Assembly (NCBI GenBank): GCA_002707745.1
Contig: PANU01000087.1
Coordinates: 1-38,167 of the forward strand
Reading direction: 5' to 3'
DNA length: 38,167 bases
DNA from: Flavobacteriaceae bacterium
GTDB taxonomy: Bacteria; Bacteroidota; Bacteroidia; Flavobacteriales; Flavobacteriaceae
Every line of letters begins with the position of its first letter. Within the stretch, counting starts at the first letter, position 1. Below, in pieces: positions 25,365 to 34,640 of the stretch. Both the position numbers and the translations under genes were made by a program. A model generated the notes under the pieces. It was not told the origin of the DNA, did not search any database, and worked only from the letters and a program-made list of their open reading frames with translations.

Positions 25365-25426
25365 TAACATTAAGATAACACAAACCTTACTTAATGCTAA
25401 AACAAGCATAACATTTAGGTAACCAG
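25365..25426 (+). promoter_or_regulatory. Six 11-bp-phased TAACATT-like direct repeats (putative extended Pho-box-like array)
   Basis: 25365 TAACATT, 25376 TAACACA, 25387 TTACTTA, 25398 TAAAACA, 25409 TAACATT, 25420 TAACCAG. Confidence 0.65.
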
Positions 25427-25444
25427 CAATGAAGCATTTCAAAG

Positions 25445-25452
25445 TTTCTTTG
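25445..25452 (+). promoter_or_regulatory. Degenerate -7 element of the TonB-dependent receptor gene
   Basis: TTTCTTTG then CACC; 25 bp from the last repeat. Confidence 0.5.
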
Positions 25453-25475
25453 CACCAAATGAATAAACTACTTTG

Positions 25476-30814: not shown

Positions 30815-30847
30815 TCCAATGTTAAGTTTTCAAAACTTAACATTGGA
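30815..30847. repeat. Perfect 33-nt palindrome containing TAACATT on both strands
   Basis: TCCAATGTTAAGTTTT-C-AAAACTTAACATTGGA. Confidence 0.95.
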
Positions 30848-30860
30848 GGCTTCAATTACT

Positions 30861-30915
30861 TAATAATAGCTTAATATTTAGGTTACATTCAAGCGACATA
30901 GATGTACTTATTTTG
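30861..30915 (+). promoter_or_regulatory. Pho-box-like promoter (three 11-bp-phased repeats plus -7 element) not preceding a recognizable gene
   Basis: TAATAAT 30861, TAATATT 30872, TTACATT 30883; -7 TTATTTTG 30908-30915. Confidence 0.5.
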
Positions 30916-30920
30916 TAGGG

Positions 30921-31011
30921 TCGTAAGACATGCACATCTGTAAATCGTTTAAGTTTTTGTCAACTAGATTTTAATGTGTACTGGCTACCTTTTTTAGGGT
31001 AGCCTTTTTTA
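30921..31011 (+). ncRNA. Candidate small RNA with intrinsic terminator
   Basis: Starts just downstream of the -7 at 30908-30915 and ends at GGCTACC-N8-GGTAGCC-TTTTTT (30983-31010); no convincing ORF. Confidence 0.45.
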
Positions 31012-31012
31012 T
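30983..31012 (+). terminator. Intrinsic terminator of the candidate sRNA
   Basis: GGCTACCTTTTTTAGGGTAGCCTTTTTT. Confidence 0.85.
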
Positions 31013-31043
31013 TTATACGAACACAAAATAATAGTTATAAATT

Positions 31044-31087
31044 TAATCATTACGTAACATTCAGTTAACATTGGTTTTAGTTCTTTG
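31044..31087 (+). promoter_or_regulatory. Pho-box-like promoter of the porin gene
   Basis: TAATCAT 31044 (weak), TAACATT 31055, TAACATT 31066; -7 GTTCTTTG 31080-31087 then CAGC. Confidence 0.6.
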
Positions 31088-31115
31088 CAGCGACAAAAAC
31101 TTAAAGACGATTGTA

Positions 31116-32318
31116 ATGAGAGTATCTTTCCTTCTTGTAGGGTTAACCTGCATGATTTTAAATATTGCTAATGCACAAGAAATTAGCGATGCTAAATTTG
31201 GTAAAGGTCTACTTAACTTTGTGGCAAAAGACAGTTCCTTCAGTGTAAATTTTGCACCTCGTATTCAGGGACGCTTTATGTCTGAGTGGAACCACAATGG
31301 TGACAACTACGGTAGCCCCGAGCACAACTTCTTAATTCGCCGAGCCCGACTTAAATTTGGTGGTTTTGCGTATTCCCCGAACCTAAAATATAAAATTGAA
31401 TTGGGACTCTCCAACCGTGATATTTCGGGAGGAAACCAATTTAACCGTAATACCTCCCGCATTATCTTAGACGCAGTGGTGATGTGGAATTTCTACGAAA
31501 ATTTCGAATTATGGGCAGGACAAACCAAGCTTCCCGGCAATGTGGAGCGTGTGGTTTCTTCAGCCAATTTACAGCTTATAGACCGCTCTTTATTAAACAG
31601 TAATTTTAATATAGATCGGGATGTGGGTATACAACTACGTCACGAGACTAACCTGGGAGGTAACTTCTGGACTCGCGAAAAAGTTGCTGTTTCCCAAGGG
31701 GAAGGGCGCAACGTAACGGAAGGCAACGAAGGTGGTTTGCAGTATACGGGTCGCTTGGAGTTTTTACCTTTCGGAAAATTTGCTTCAAAAGGAGATTATA
31801 CACAAGTTGATTTAAAAAGAGAAGCATCTCCTAAATTAATGATCGGGATTACCTACGACTACAATAACGATGCTGTTAAAACAAGAAGCAACCTGGGCTC
31901 CTATATGTTTTTGGAAGATGGTAGCTTGTATGAAACAGACATTACTACATTCTTTGCCGATGCCATGTTTAAGTACAAAGGTTTTGCCTTTATGGGCGAA
32001 TATGCTGCCAGGGATGCAGAAAACCCTGTTGCGGTAGAAGCCGACGGAAGTGCTACGGGCGATATTGTTCGTGTTGGAAATGCCTTTAATGCACAGCTCA
32101 GTTATTTATTCAAAAATAATTACGAAATTACAAGCCGTTATACCACTACCGATTTTAAATCGGTAACCAGTAGAGCACCGCAAGACCAATATACCTTAGG
32201 GGTGTCAAAATATATTGTAGGACATAAATTAAAAGTTCAGGGAGACGTGAGTTATACTACCCTAGATGGTAGCGAAGACAATATCATGGTAAGAACTGGA
32301 TTTGAATTACATTTTTAA
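31116..32318 (+). CDS. Porin, phosphate-selective porin O/P-like
   Basis: Start trimmed to MRVSFLLVGLTCMILNIANAQ (signal peptide, downstream of the predicted TSS); FAPRIQGRFMSEWNHNGDNYGSPEHNFLIRRARLKFGGFAYSPNLKYKIELG; C-terminal TGFELHF. Confidence 0.82.
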   Translation: MRVSFLLVGLTCMILNIANAQEISDAKFGKGLLNFVAKDSSFSVNFAPRIQGRFMSEWNHNGDNYGSPEHNFLIRRARLKFGGFAYSPNLKYKIELGLSNRDISGGNQFNRNTSRIILDAVVMWNFYENFELWAGQTKLPGNVERVVSSANLQLIDRSLLNSNFNIDRDVGIQLRHETNLGGNFWTREKVAVSQGEGRNVTEGNEGGLQYTGRLEFLPFGKFASKGDYTQVDLKREASPKLMIGITYDYNNDAVKTRSNLGSYMFLEDGSLYETDITTFFADAMFKYKGFAFMGEYAARDAENPVAVEADGSATGDIVRVGNAFNAQLSYLFKNNYEITSRYTTTDFKSVTSRAPQDQYTLGVSKYIVGHKLKVQGDVSYTTLDGSEDNIMVRTGFELHF

Positions 32319-32375: not shown

Positions 32376-34640
32376 ATGGAAGCACTATTTAATATGGAAA
32401 ATATTTATTTATTCATGCTAATTGCATTAGTTGTTTTAGCCGTGATAGATATCGTCGTTGGAGTAAGTAACGATGCTATAAACTTTTTAAACTCTGCTAT
32501 TGGTTCCAAAGCAATTTCTATGCGAACCATTATGATCGTGGCTAGTTTGGGTATTTTTATTGGCGCTGTCTTTTCCAGTGGCCTTATGGAAGTAGCCCGA
32601 AAGGGGATATTTGTCCCCGGACAATTCTATTTCGATGAGATCATGGTTATTTTTATGGCTGTAATGATCACAGATATCTTACTGCTGGATTTCTTTAATA
32701 CACTGGGTTTACCAACTTCTACAACAGTTTCTATCGTTTTCAACTTGTTAGGGGCTGCGGTTGTAATGTCCTGTATTAAAATAAGTAAGTCGGATACCGA
32801 AACACTTGCTAACCTTGCAGAATATATTAATACAGCAAAAGCTTTTGAAATTATCATGGGTATCTTATTATCTGTACTTATCGCTTTTACGATAGGAGCT
32901 TTGGTACAGTGGATTTCCAGATTAGTTTTCACCTTTCACTTTAAAGATAAAATGAAACACTTTGGAGCTGTGTTTGGCGGAATCGCATTAGCAGCTATTG
33001 GGTATTTTATTTTTATGAAAGGCCTAAAGGGAACCCCGTATTACGATGATTTTAAAGATATTATAGAAGGGAATGAGCTTGTAATATTGGGAAGTAGCTT
33101 TATATTCTTTACCTTATTTTCTTATGCTTTTCAGAAAATATTTAAGAAAAGTATCTTAATAATTGTAATTGCTGTTGGAACGTTTGGATTGGCTCTTGCT
33201 TTTTCAGGAAACGATTTGGTAAACTTTATCGGGGTGCCTATGGCAGCATACCATTCGTACGAATTTTGGGCAGCTTCGGGAGTAGATGCAAGTTTATTCT
33301 CTATGGAAATTTTAGAAAAGAAAGTACCTGCAGAACCGCTATTGTTATTTATTGCCGGTGCCATCATGGTAATTACACTTTGGTTCTCTAAAAAAGCCAA
33401 AACCGTTGCAGAAACCGAAATAAGTTTATCCCGTCAGGGAGAAACACACGAAAAGTTTGAACCCAATATGCTTTCCAGACTCATCGTAAGAGGAACCACT
33501 GGTCTGTCTTTTGGATTGGGCAAAGTTATTCCGGCAGCTGCTCAGGAAAAAATTAATAAAAGTTTTCAAAAACCCGACACGAAAGCCCTTACCAAGGATC
33601 AAAGTATAAATGCTCCTGCTTTCGATATGATTAGAGCCTCTGTAAACCTTATGGTTGCGGGTGTACTAATTTCAATTGCAACCACTATGAAACTCCCACT
33701 GTCCACTACCTACGTTACTTTTATGGTGGCCATGGGTACTTCCCTTGCAGACAGAGCCTGGGGAAGAGAAAGTGCTGTGTATAGAGTAGCCGGGGTTCTT
33801 AATGTAATTGGCGGATGGTTCTTTACAGCCATTGGTGCTTTTATTGCGTGTGGAGTTGTAGTGTTCCTTATACAATGGAACAAGGAGATTATGACCCCAA
33901 TACTCCTATTACTTACCGTTTTATTATTGGTAAGAAACTACCTTTCTCATAAAAAGAAAAGTGAAATATCCTTAGATCCAAGTAAACTAAAAAAGAGCGA
34001 AAGTAGTACGGTACAAGGTATTATTTCAGAAAGTGCCGACAACATCTCAAACGTCATTTCACGTACTAATAAAATTTATTCTATTGTGCTGAAAGGTCTG
34101 GCCAAAGAAGATTCTAAAGGACTTAAAAAAGGAAGAAAGCAAGTTGATAAGTTAGATGCAGAAATTGAAGAGCTACGGGACAATATTTTTTATCTCATTA
34201 AAAATCTGGATGAAACCAGTGTGCGTGGAAGCAATTTTTACATCATTATATTGGGGCACTTAACTGATATGGCACAGTCCTTGGATTTTATTGCCAAAAA
34301 GAGTTATAAACATATCAACAACAATCATAAAAAACTGAAATTCAGTCAAATTAAAGACCTTCAGGAAATAGACCAGACCCTTACTTCGGTTTTGGAAGAA
34401 ATAGAAGAAGTTTTTAATAGCCGAAAGTTTGAGCGTGTTAGTTTTGTACTTGCAAGAAAGAGTGAGGTGGAAGCAATGCTTTCTGATAAAATTCAGAAAC
34501 AAATTGACCGCACCCGAAGCGAAGAATCCAGTCCTAAAAATACAACCTTGTATTTTAATATTTTGTTAGAAACAAAAGACCTGGCTTCAGGGATTATGAA
34601 CCTGATGGAAGAATACTATTCAAGCTATAAACGCGAGTAA
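32376..34640 (+). CDS. Inorganic phosphate transporter (PiT/PHO4 family) with C-terminal PhoU-like helical domain
   Basis: VVGVSNDAINFLNSAIGSKAISMRT and TMKLPLSTTYVTFMVAMGTSLADRAWGRESAVYRVAG signature duplication; C-terminal ~200 aa charged helical region. Confidence 0.9.
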   Translation: MEALFNMENIYLFMLIALVVLAVIDIVVGVSNDAINFLNSAIGSKAISMRTIMIVASLGIFIGAVFSSGLMEVARKGIFVPGQFYFDEIMVIFMAVMITDILLLDFFNTLGLPTSTTVSIVFNLLGAAVVMSCIKISKSDTETLANLAEYINTAKAFEIIMGILLSVLIAFTIGALVQWISRLVFTFHFKDKMKHFGAVFGGIALAAIGYFIFMKGLKGTPYYDDFKDIIEGNELVILGSSFIFFTLFSYAFQKIFKKSILIIVIAVGTFGLALAFSGNDLVNFIGVPMAAYHSYEFWAASGVDASLFSMEILEKKVPAEPLLLFIAGAIMVITLWFSKKAKTVAETEISLSRQGETHEKFEPNMLSRLIVRGTTGLSFGLGKVIPAAAQEKINKSFQKPDTKALTKDQSINAPAFDMIRASVNLMVAGVLISIATTMKLPLSTTYVTFMVAMGTSLADRAWGRESAVYRVAGVLNVIGGWFFTAIGAFIACGVVVFLIQWNKEIMTPILLLLTVLLLVRNYLSHKKKSEISLDPSKLKKSESSTVQGIISESADNISNVISRTNKIYSIVLKGLAKEDSKGLKKGRKQVDKLDAEIEELRDNIFYLIKNLDETSVRGSNFYIIILGHLTDMAQSLDFIAKKSYKHINNNHKKLKFSQIKDLQEIDQTLTSVLEEIEEVFNSRKFERVSFVLARKSEVEAMLSDKIQKQIDRTRSEESSPKNTTLYFNILLETKDLASGIMNLMEEYYSSYKRE

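Follow-up and report, generated by a model that had tools for sequence, protein, structure and literature searches.

In this study, we analysed a stretch of 38,167 nucleotides from a Flavobacteriaceae bacterium (contig PANU01000087.1), hereafter called the window. It carries a gene for an outer-membrane porin followed by a phosphate transporter gene, and the segment between a MORN_2 gene and the porin gene is predicted to encode a small RNA (sRNA) of ca. 90 nt (Table 1). A preliminary description had proposed here a Pho-box-like promoter spaced like those of the neighbouring genes, a strong terminator 68 nt after the -7 element, and a separate porin promoter beyond the terminator. All these elements were found in the window sequence: the four units of the sRNA box start at 30860, 30871, 30882, and 30893, the terminator begins 68 nt past the -7 element, and the porin gene has its own box and TTTG downstream of it. 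The two promoters are alike in having 8 nt between the last box unit and TTTG. The porin mRNA is predicted to start at the G or C of CGACAAAA. No recognizable gene had been seen behind the sRNA promoter, and we likewise found no ORF there that is conserved among congeners. With its own promoter, an intrinsic terminator, and no conserved ORF, the segment has the features of a base-pairing sRNA; it lies on the same strand as the porin gene, upstream of it and without overlap, unlike a cis-antisense RNA, which overlaps its target on the opposite strand.

A perfect palindrome of 31 nt, CCAATGTTAAGTTTTCAAAACTTAACATTGG, was observed at positions 30818-30848, in the space that separates the sRNA from the MORN_2 gene. 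It consists of two inverted TTAACATT units and is kept in two congeners and partly lost in a third.

Table 1 Features of the sRNA-porin locus (positions in the window).
Feature	Positions	Strand	Evidence
sRNA promoter, regulator box of four 11-bp units (TTAATAATAGC, TTAATATTTAG, GTTACATTCAA, GCGACATAGAT)	30860-30903	+	Sequence; 129 aligned promoter pairs
sRNA -7 element TTATTTTG, Bacteroidota type, TTTG conserved at 30912-30915	30908-30915	+	Sequence, conservation
Predicted sRNA, ca. 90 nt	30921-31010	+	Covariance model R1, E 5e-14; fold z -3.8; predicted start
sRNA main hairpin presenting the antisense loop	30931-30980	+	Folds; covariation (0/500 shuffles)
Outer stem of main hairpin	30931-30937/30974-30980	+	Folds
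Inner stem of main hairpin	30942-30946/30967-30971	+	Folds
Apical mini-stem of main hairpin, conserved	30952-30955/30962-30965	+	Folds
Antisense segment AUCGUUUAAGUUUUUGUC, complement of the porin mRNA 5' end	30944-30961	+	Sequence, pairing statistics
Intrinsic terminator GGCTACC-TTTTTTA-GGGTAGCC + T6	30983-31010	+	Sequence; covariation of stem pairs
Porin promoter box: TTAATCATTAC, GTAACATTCAG, TTAACATTGGT	31043-31075	+	Sequence; aligned promoters
TTTG of porin -7 element	31084-31087	+	Sequence, conservation
Target site CGACAAAAACTTAAAGACGATT, predicted 5' end of porin mRNA, stops just short of AUG	31091-31112	+	Invariant block in relatives; pairing statistics
Target gene: outer-membrane porin, PF07396 Porin_O_P; ATG at 31116	31116-32318	+	Pfam, E 1.3e-12
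Neighbouring PHO4/PiT phosphate transporter gene	32376-34640	+	Pfam PF01384

Conservation and structure of the sRNA family

The preliminary description had made the RNA depend on conservation of the segment in relatives that keep the neighbouring genes, and such conservation was found. The segment is present, at 76-78% identity and ahead of the same porin, in three of four congeners; the fourth (G001) has neither segment nor porin. The box, the -7 element, a core of ca. 18 nt, and the terminator are kept in the congeners, and the spacers vary. When GTDB genomes were scanned for the pattern, 90 loci were obtained; among the 80 listed, 60 have the porin leader motif within 330 nt, and the loci with this motif span Aequorivita, Ulvibacter, Marixanthomonas, Christiangramia, Zhouia, Leptobacterium, Patiriisocius, and others. 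Matches to the core pattern in unrelated bacteria such as Snodgrassella, Fusibacter, Pseudorhodobacter, and others had neither terminator nor leader motif and were rejected as chance matches.

A covariance search of related genomes had also been proposed, and for it we built a model of the sRNA from 20 loci. The model matched 192 of 400 Flavobacteriaceae genomes, distributed over 135 of 238 genera. At E<=1e-4, it matched 5 of 298 genomes in an order-level sample and, in a class-level sample of 297 genomes, none except the window's own. These sequence comparisons indicate that the sRNA is real and conserved in about half of the Flavobacteriaceae. Among the sRNA matches listed, 103 of 150 precede a listed same-strand porin by 78-176 bp and only 9 further sRNAs have a listed porin elsewhere in the genome; distances were taken from listed matches only, and these totals are lower bounds. 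We also read the upstream regions of twenty porins with no listed sRNA. Six of them have neither the sRNA core nor the leader motif, one (L301) keeps the leader with no detectable sRNA, and the remaining regions have both, including L314, whose sRNA core is a variant.

Two loci were observed apart from this pattern. In Aequorivita vitellina (L115, position 3290, minus strand), the sRNA is kept with no porin match, and the gene now downstream of it has a degenerate leader motif; this sRNA is possibly an orphan after loss of its target. A contig labelled Candidatus Rokubacteria (L136) carries the flavobacterial sRNA and porin leader, and its labelling is probably a binning error.

The sRNA segment folds at -25 kcal/mol compared with -14.5 for shuffled sequences (z -3.8). 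The covariation score of the structure was 0.417 versus 0.208, none of 500 shuffles reached 0.417, and the score fell to <=0.154 when the partners were slid by 1 to 3 columns. Among 100 distinct sRNA sequences, 95% of cells are paired and 13 of 17 pairs change on both sides, including all five pairs of helix 1, and all eight terminator stem pairs covary; the alignment was fitted to the model, so these counts lean towards the structure. An Rfam 15 search of the window returned a tRNA alone and nothing on the sRNA. In 16 relatives, no match over the sRNA was obtained at a relaxed Rfam threshold, and the Flavo-1 RNA model (RF01705) did not match the sRNA. A search of openly accessible literature, supplements aside, returned no description of it. 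The earlier suggestion of a plausible undescribed regulatory RNA is thus borne out by conservation, covariation, and the lack of an Rfam match. A sub-threshold Flavo-1 RNA match (34.8 bits; gathering threshold 42) was observed at L049:2520-2604, in the same locus as the sRNA and ca. 1 kb from it.

Complementarity between the sRNA and the porin mRNA

Complementarity to the porin, absent from the preliminary description, was found in this analysis. Apart from a small bulge, the core AUCGUUUAAGUUUUUGUC is reverse-complementary to GACAAAAACUUAAAGACGAU, which lies at the predicted 5' end of the porin mRNA. In 151 distinct sRNA/leader pairs, the cognate duplexes had a mean energy of -24.7 kcal/mol versus -20.4 for re-paired ones, a difference reached in 0 of 20000 re-pairings. 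Because relatedness among the genomes inflates this test, independent contrasts on a porin tree were counted as well. At positions -1 and -2, 3.8 and 3.5 of 5 contrasts were in the pairing direction and none against, a consistent but small set with p 0.125 for each column. Compensatory switches of pair type were seen at four positions on the 5' side of the core (A:T to G:T to G:C; T:A/A:T/C:G; T:A/A:T; and A:T/T:A), which are paired in 150, 146, 134, and 129 of the 151 pairs, respectively.

The best single case of compensatory change is a locus in another family of the same order (L347). Its sRNA sequence GTTTTAGTC matches the leader GACTAAAAT, so that the otherwise invariant core is changed on both sides in a compensatory manner, and the downstream gene is again a Porin_O_P gene. 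The cognate duplex there has an energy of -21.7, compared with -8.2 and -10.2 when exchanged with the partners from the window.

The duplex covers the start codon in 134 of 155 pairs and reaches it in 152. No cognate-specific covariation was seen at the start codon, which re-paired duplexes cover nearly as often (83%). Duplex energy alone is not discriminating because coding stretches in the window reach -24.9, compared with -22.3 at the porin site. When eight genomes were searched for TTTG-N2-5-GACAAAAACTNA, seven had a match; it lay at the porin alone in six and at the porin plus one other site in G129. Since the leader motif follows TTTG essentially only at the porin, the sRNA looks dedicated to the porin mRNA.

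Promoter boxes and the candidate regulator

A weight matrix derived from the porin promoters gave a mean score of 1.1 for the sRNA upstream regions versus -9.2 for shuffles, with the best offsets at -33, -44, and -55 from TTTG, an exact 11-bp register. These 11-bp repeats in the same register at both promoters suggest that one PhoB/PhoP-like regulator probably drives both the sRNA and the porin gene. The 11-bp register ahead of the -7 element is clear. In the PhoP motif of Riemerella anatipestifer, the best-conserved letters are TTTAACA (PMC9603813), which the unit TTAACATT resembles. This resemblance points to a regulator of the OmpR/PhoB class and is not proof of phosphate control.

The preliminary description had placed the RNA in a phosphate regulon. 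The Porin_O_P and PHO4/PiT neighbours, the 11-bp PhoB-style repeats, and the resemblance to the TTTAACA motif give partial support to a link with phosphate, and on these grounds phosphate is the presumed signal. A search of six genomes (the window's own and five relatives) for a phosphate-binding protein of the PstS type (PF12849) found none. PstS is therefore unusable as a Pho marker here; phosphate may enter mainly through the porin and PiT. A genome-wide search for the box gave no matches in its strict form; a second form gave a mixed list with the porin, the vicinity of a TonB receptor gene, and unrelated genes, and the regulon could not be defined from this list. Ahead of the TonB receptor gene at 25473, similar units (ATAACATTAAGATAACA, ATAACATTTAGGTAACC) were observed before a TTTG element (positions 25370-25450), so that a single regulon may comprise the receptor, the sRNA, and the porin.

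Proposed function and comparison with known sRNAs

We consider it quite likely that the locus encodes a co-induced antisense sRNA of ca. 90 nt, with its own promoter and terminator, that limits porin translation. The sequence comparisons support the RNA family, its structure, the dedicated complementarity, its compensatory evolution, and its persistence in unlinked genomes; transcription itself, repression rather than activation, and the phosphate signal are inferred. The main hairpin would present the loop AGUU-UUUGUC-RACU, in which UUUG fits the YUNR U-turn common in antisense loops, and GACAAA at the mRNA 5' end would be the place where the loop nucleates. The stem would then open, and the loop and the 5' stem arm would extend the duplex over the first ca. 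20 nt of the porin mRNA, from about the predicted +1 up to or over the start codon. Ribosome access would be blocked, and the duplex would probably be exposed to decay. With the same regulator inducing both RNAs, the sRNA would act as a same-signal brake (an incoherent feed-forward arrangement) that sets a ceiling or threshold on porin synthesis.

Repression is most likely the effect of the pairing. It is conceivable, although we regard it as unlikely, that the sRNA pairs with the porin mRNA and activates it, perhaps by shielding its 5' end from nucleases or by opening a structure. The box and register common to both promoters could mean that co-induction is cooperation, and the pairing begins at the predicted 5' end of the mRNA, where protection would work; however, a duplex that reaches AUG in 152 of 155 pairs should block initiation.

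The tandem, same-strand arrangement with conserved spacing would also fit a cis-acting leader, with the hairpin serving as an attenuator in a readthrough RNA that pairs with the porin leader it contains. This is very improbable, since the porin gene is preceded by a conserved promoter of its own, which extends exactly to the pairing block, and the attenuator is contradicted by ten genomes in which the complementarity is kept although the sRNA and the porin are at least 0.9 kb apart or on different contigs. Altibacter lentus has a carbonic-anhydrase-like gene on the opposite strand between them. The mean duplex energy in these ten unlinked genomes was -23.3 versus -8.6 for shuffled leaders. These genomes are few and closely related, and exchanged and cognate partners pair equally well among them, so that the set shows persistence, not covariation. 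The persistence of the complementarity when unlinked suggests that the sRNA can act in trans.

A protein-bound inverted DNA repeat, in place of two RNA partners, is a most improbable reading of the matching blocks. They are reverse complements ca. 140 bp apart, but the sRNA copy is part of an RNA hairpin loop flanked by a promoter and a terminator, and the porin copy begins where transcription is predicted to start. Moreover, the compensatory changes differ between clades, which would not be expected of a fixed protein site. A small peptide encoded by the 14-codon ATG frame present at 30930 in the window, in place of a functional RNA, was rejected as next to impossible, since neither ATG nor frame is kept in congeners and conservation tracks base pairing.

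The proposed antisense brake has parallels in known systems. micF adjoins a porin gene and has a regulator in common with porins; MicF sits next to ompC and acts on ompF. MicF, MicC, and VrrA of Gammaproteobacteria are small RNAs that likewise pair with the 5' region of porin mRNAs, and VrrA stops translation of ompA mRNA by such base pairing (PMC2628432). In contrast to these, the present sRNA is arranged in tandem with what appears to be its only target, immediately upstream of it, and the pairing starts from the 5' end of the mRNA; we found no sequence relation. IstR/tisB and OrzO/zorO are type I toxin-antitoxin pairs with non-overlapping antisense antitoxins. They resemble this locus in that a neighbouring RNA is devoted to a single mRNA leader, with which it shares long complementarity, whereas the target here is a conserved porin rather than a toxin, in the same orientation and with a predicted shared regulator.

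In the same phylum, GibS and BTnc060 of Bacteroides (RF04182, RF04184) and Flavo-1 RNA (RF01705) are structured, and none of them matches this sRNA. The catalogue of Flavobacterium psychrophilum comprises 85 Rfp RNAs, among which Rfp18 is a conserved structured sRNA whose third stem-loop targets metalloprotease mRNAs (PMC9723704). By description, Rfp18 resembles the present RNA as a conserved structured flavobacterial sRNA and differs in target. What is new here is an sRNA, uncatalogued in Rfam, of the probable porin-silencing antisense type in an unusual tandem, co-regulated arrangement.

With less confidence than for the brake itself, we lean towards a family-wide Bacteroidota circuit in which a phosphate-locus porin and its dedicated antisense RNA answer to one regulator and outer-membrane permeability is capped by RNA pairing at the extreme 5' end of the mRNA. 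Such a circuit would be an incoherent feed-forward loop that is conserved and has one target. Outside Proteobacteria and Firmicutes, there are, to our knowledge, few known sRNAs whose targets are conserved and covary. The present sRNA family predicts a specific mRNA, a pairing site, and test mutations. Flavobacteriaceae are abundant in seawater; if confirmed, the circuit would give nutrient uptake in marine Bacteroidota an additional layer, made of RNA, and would provide a clean natural model of one-to-one sRNA-mRNA coevolution.
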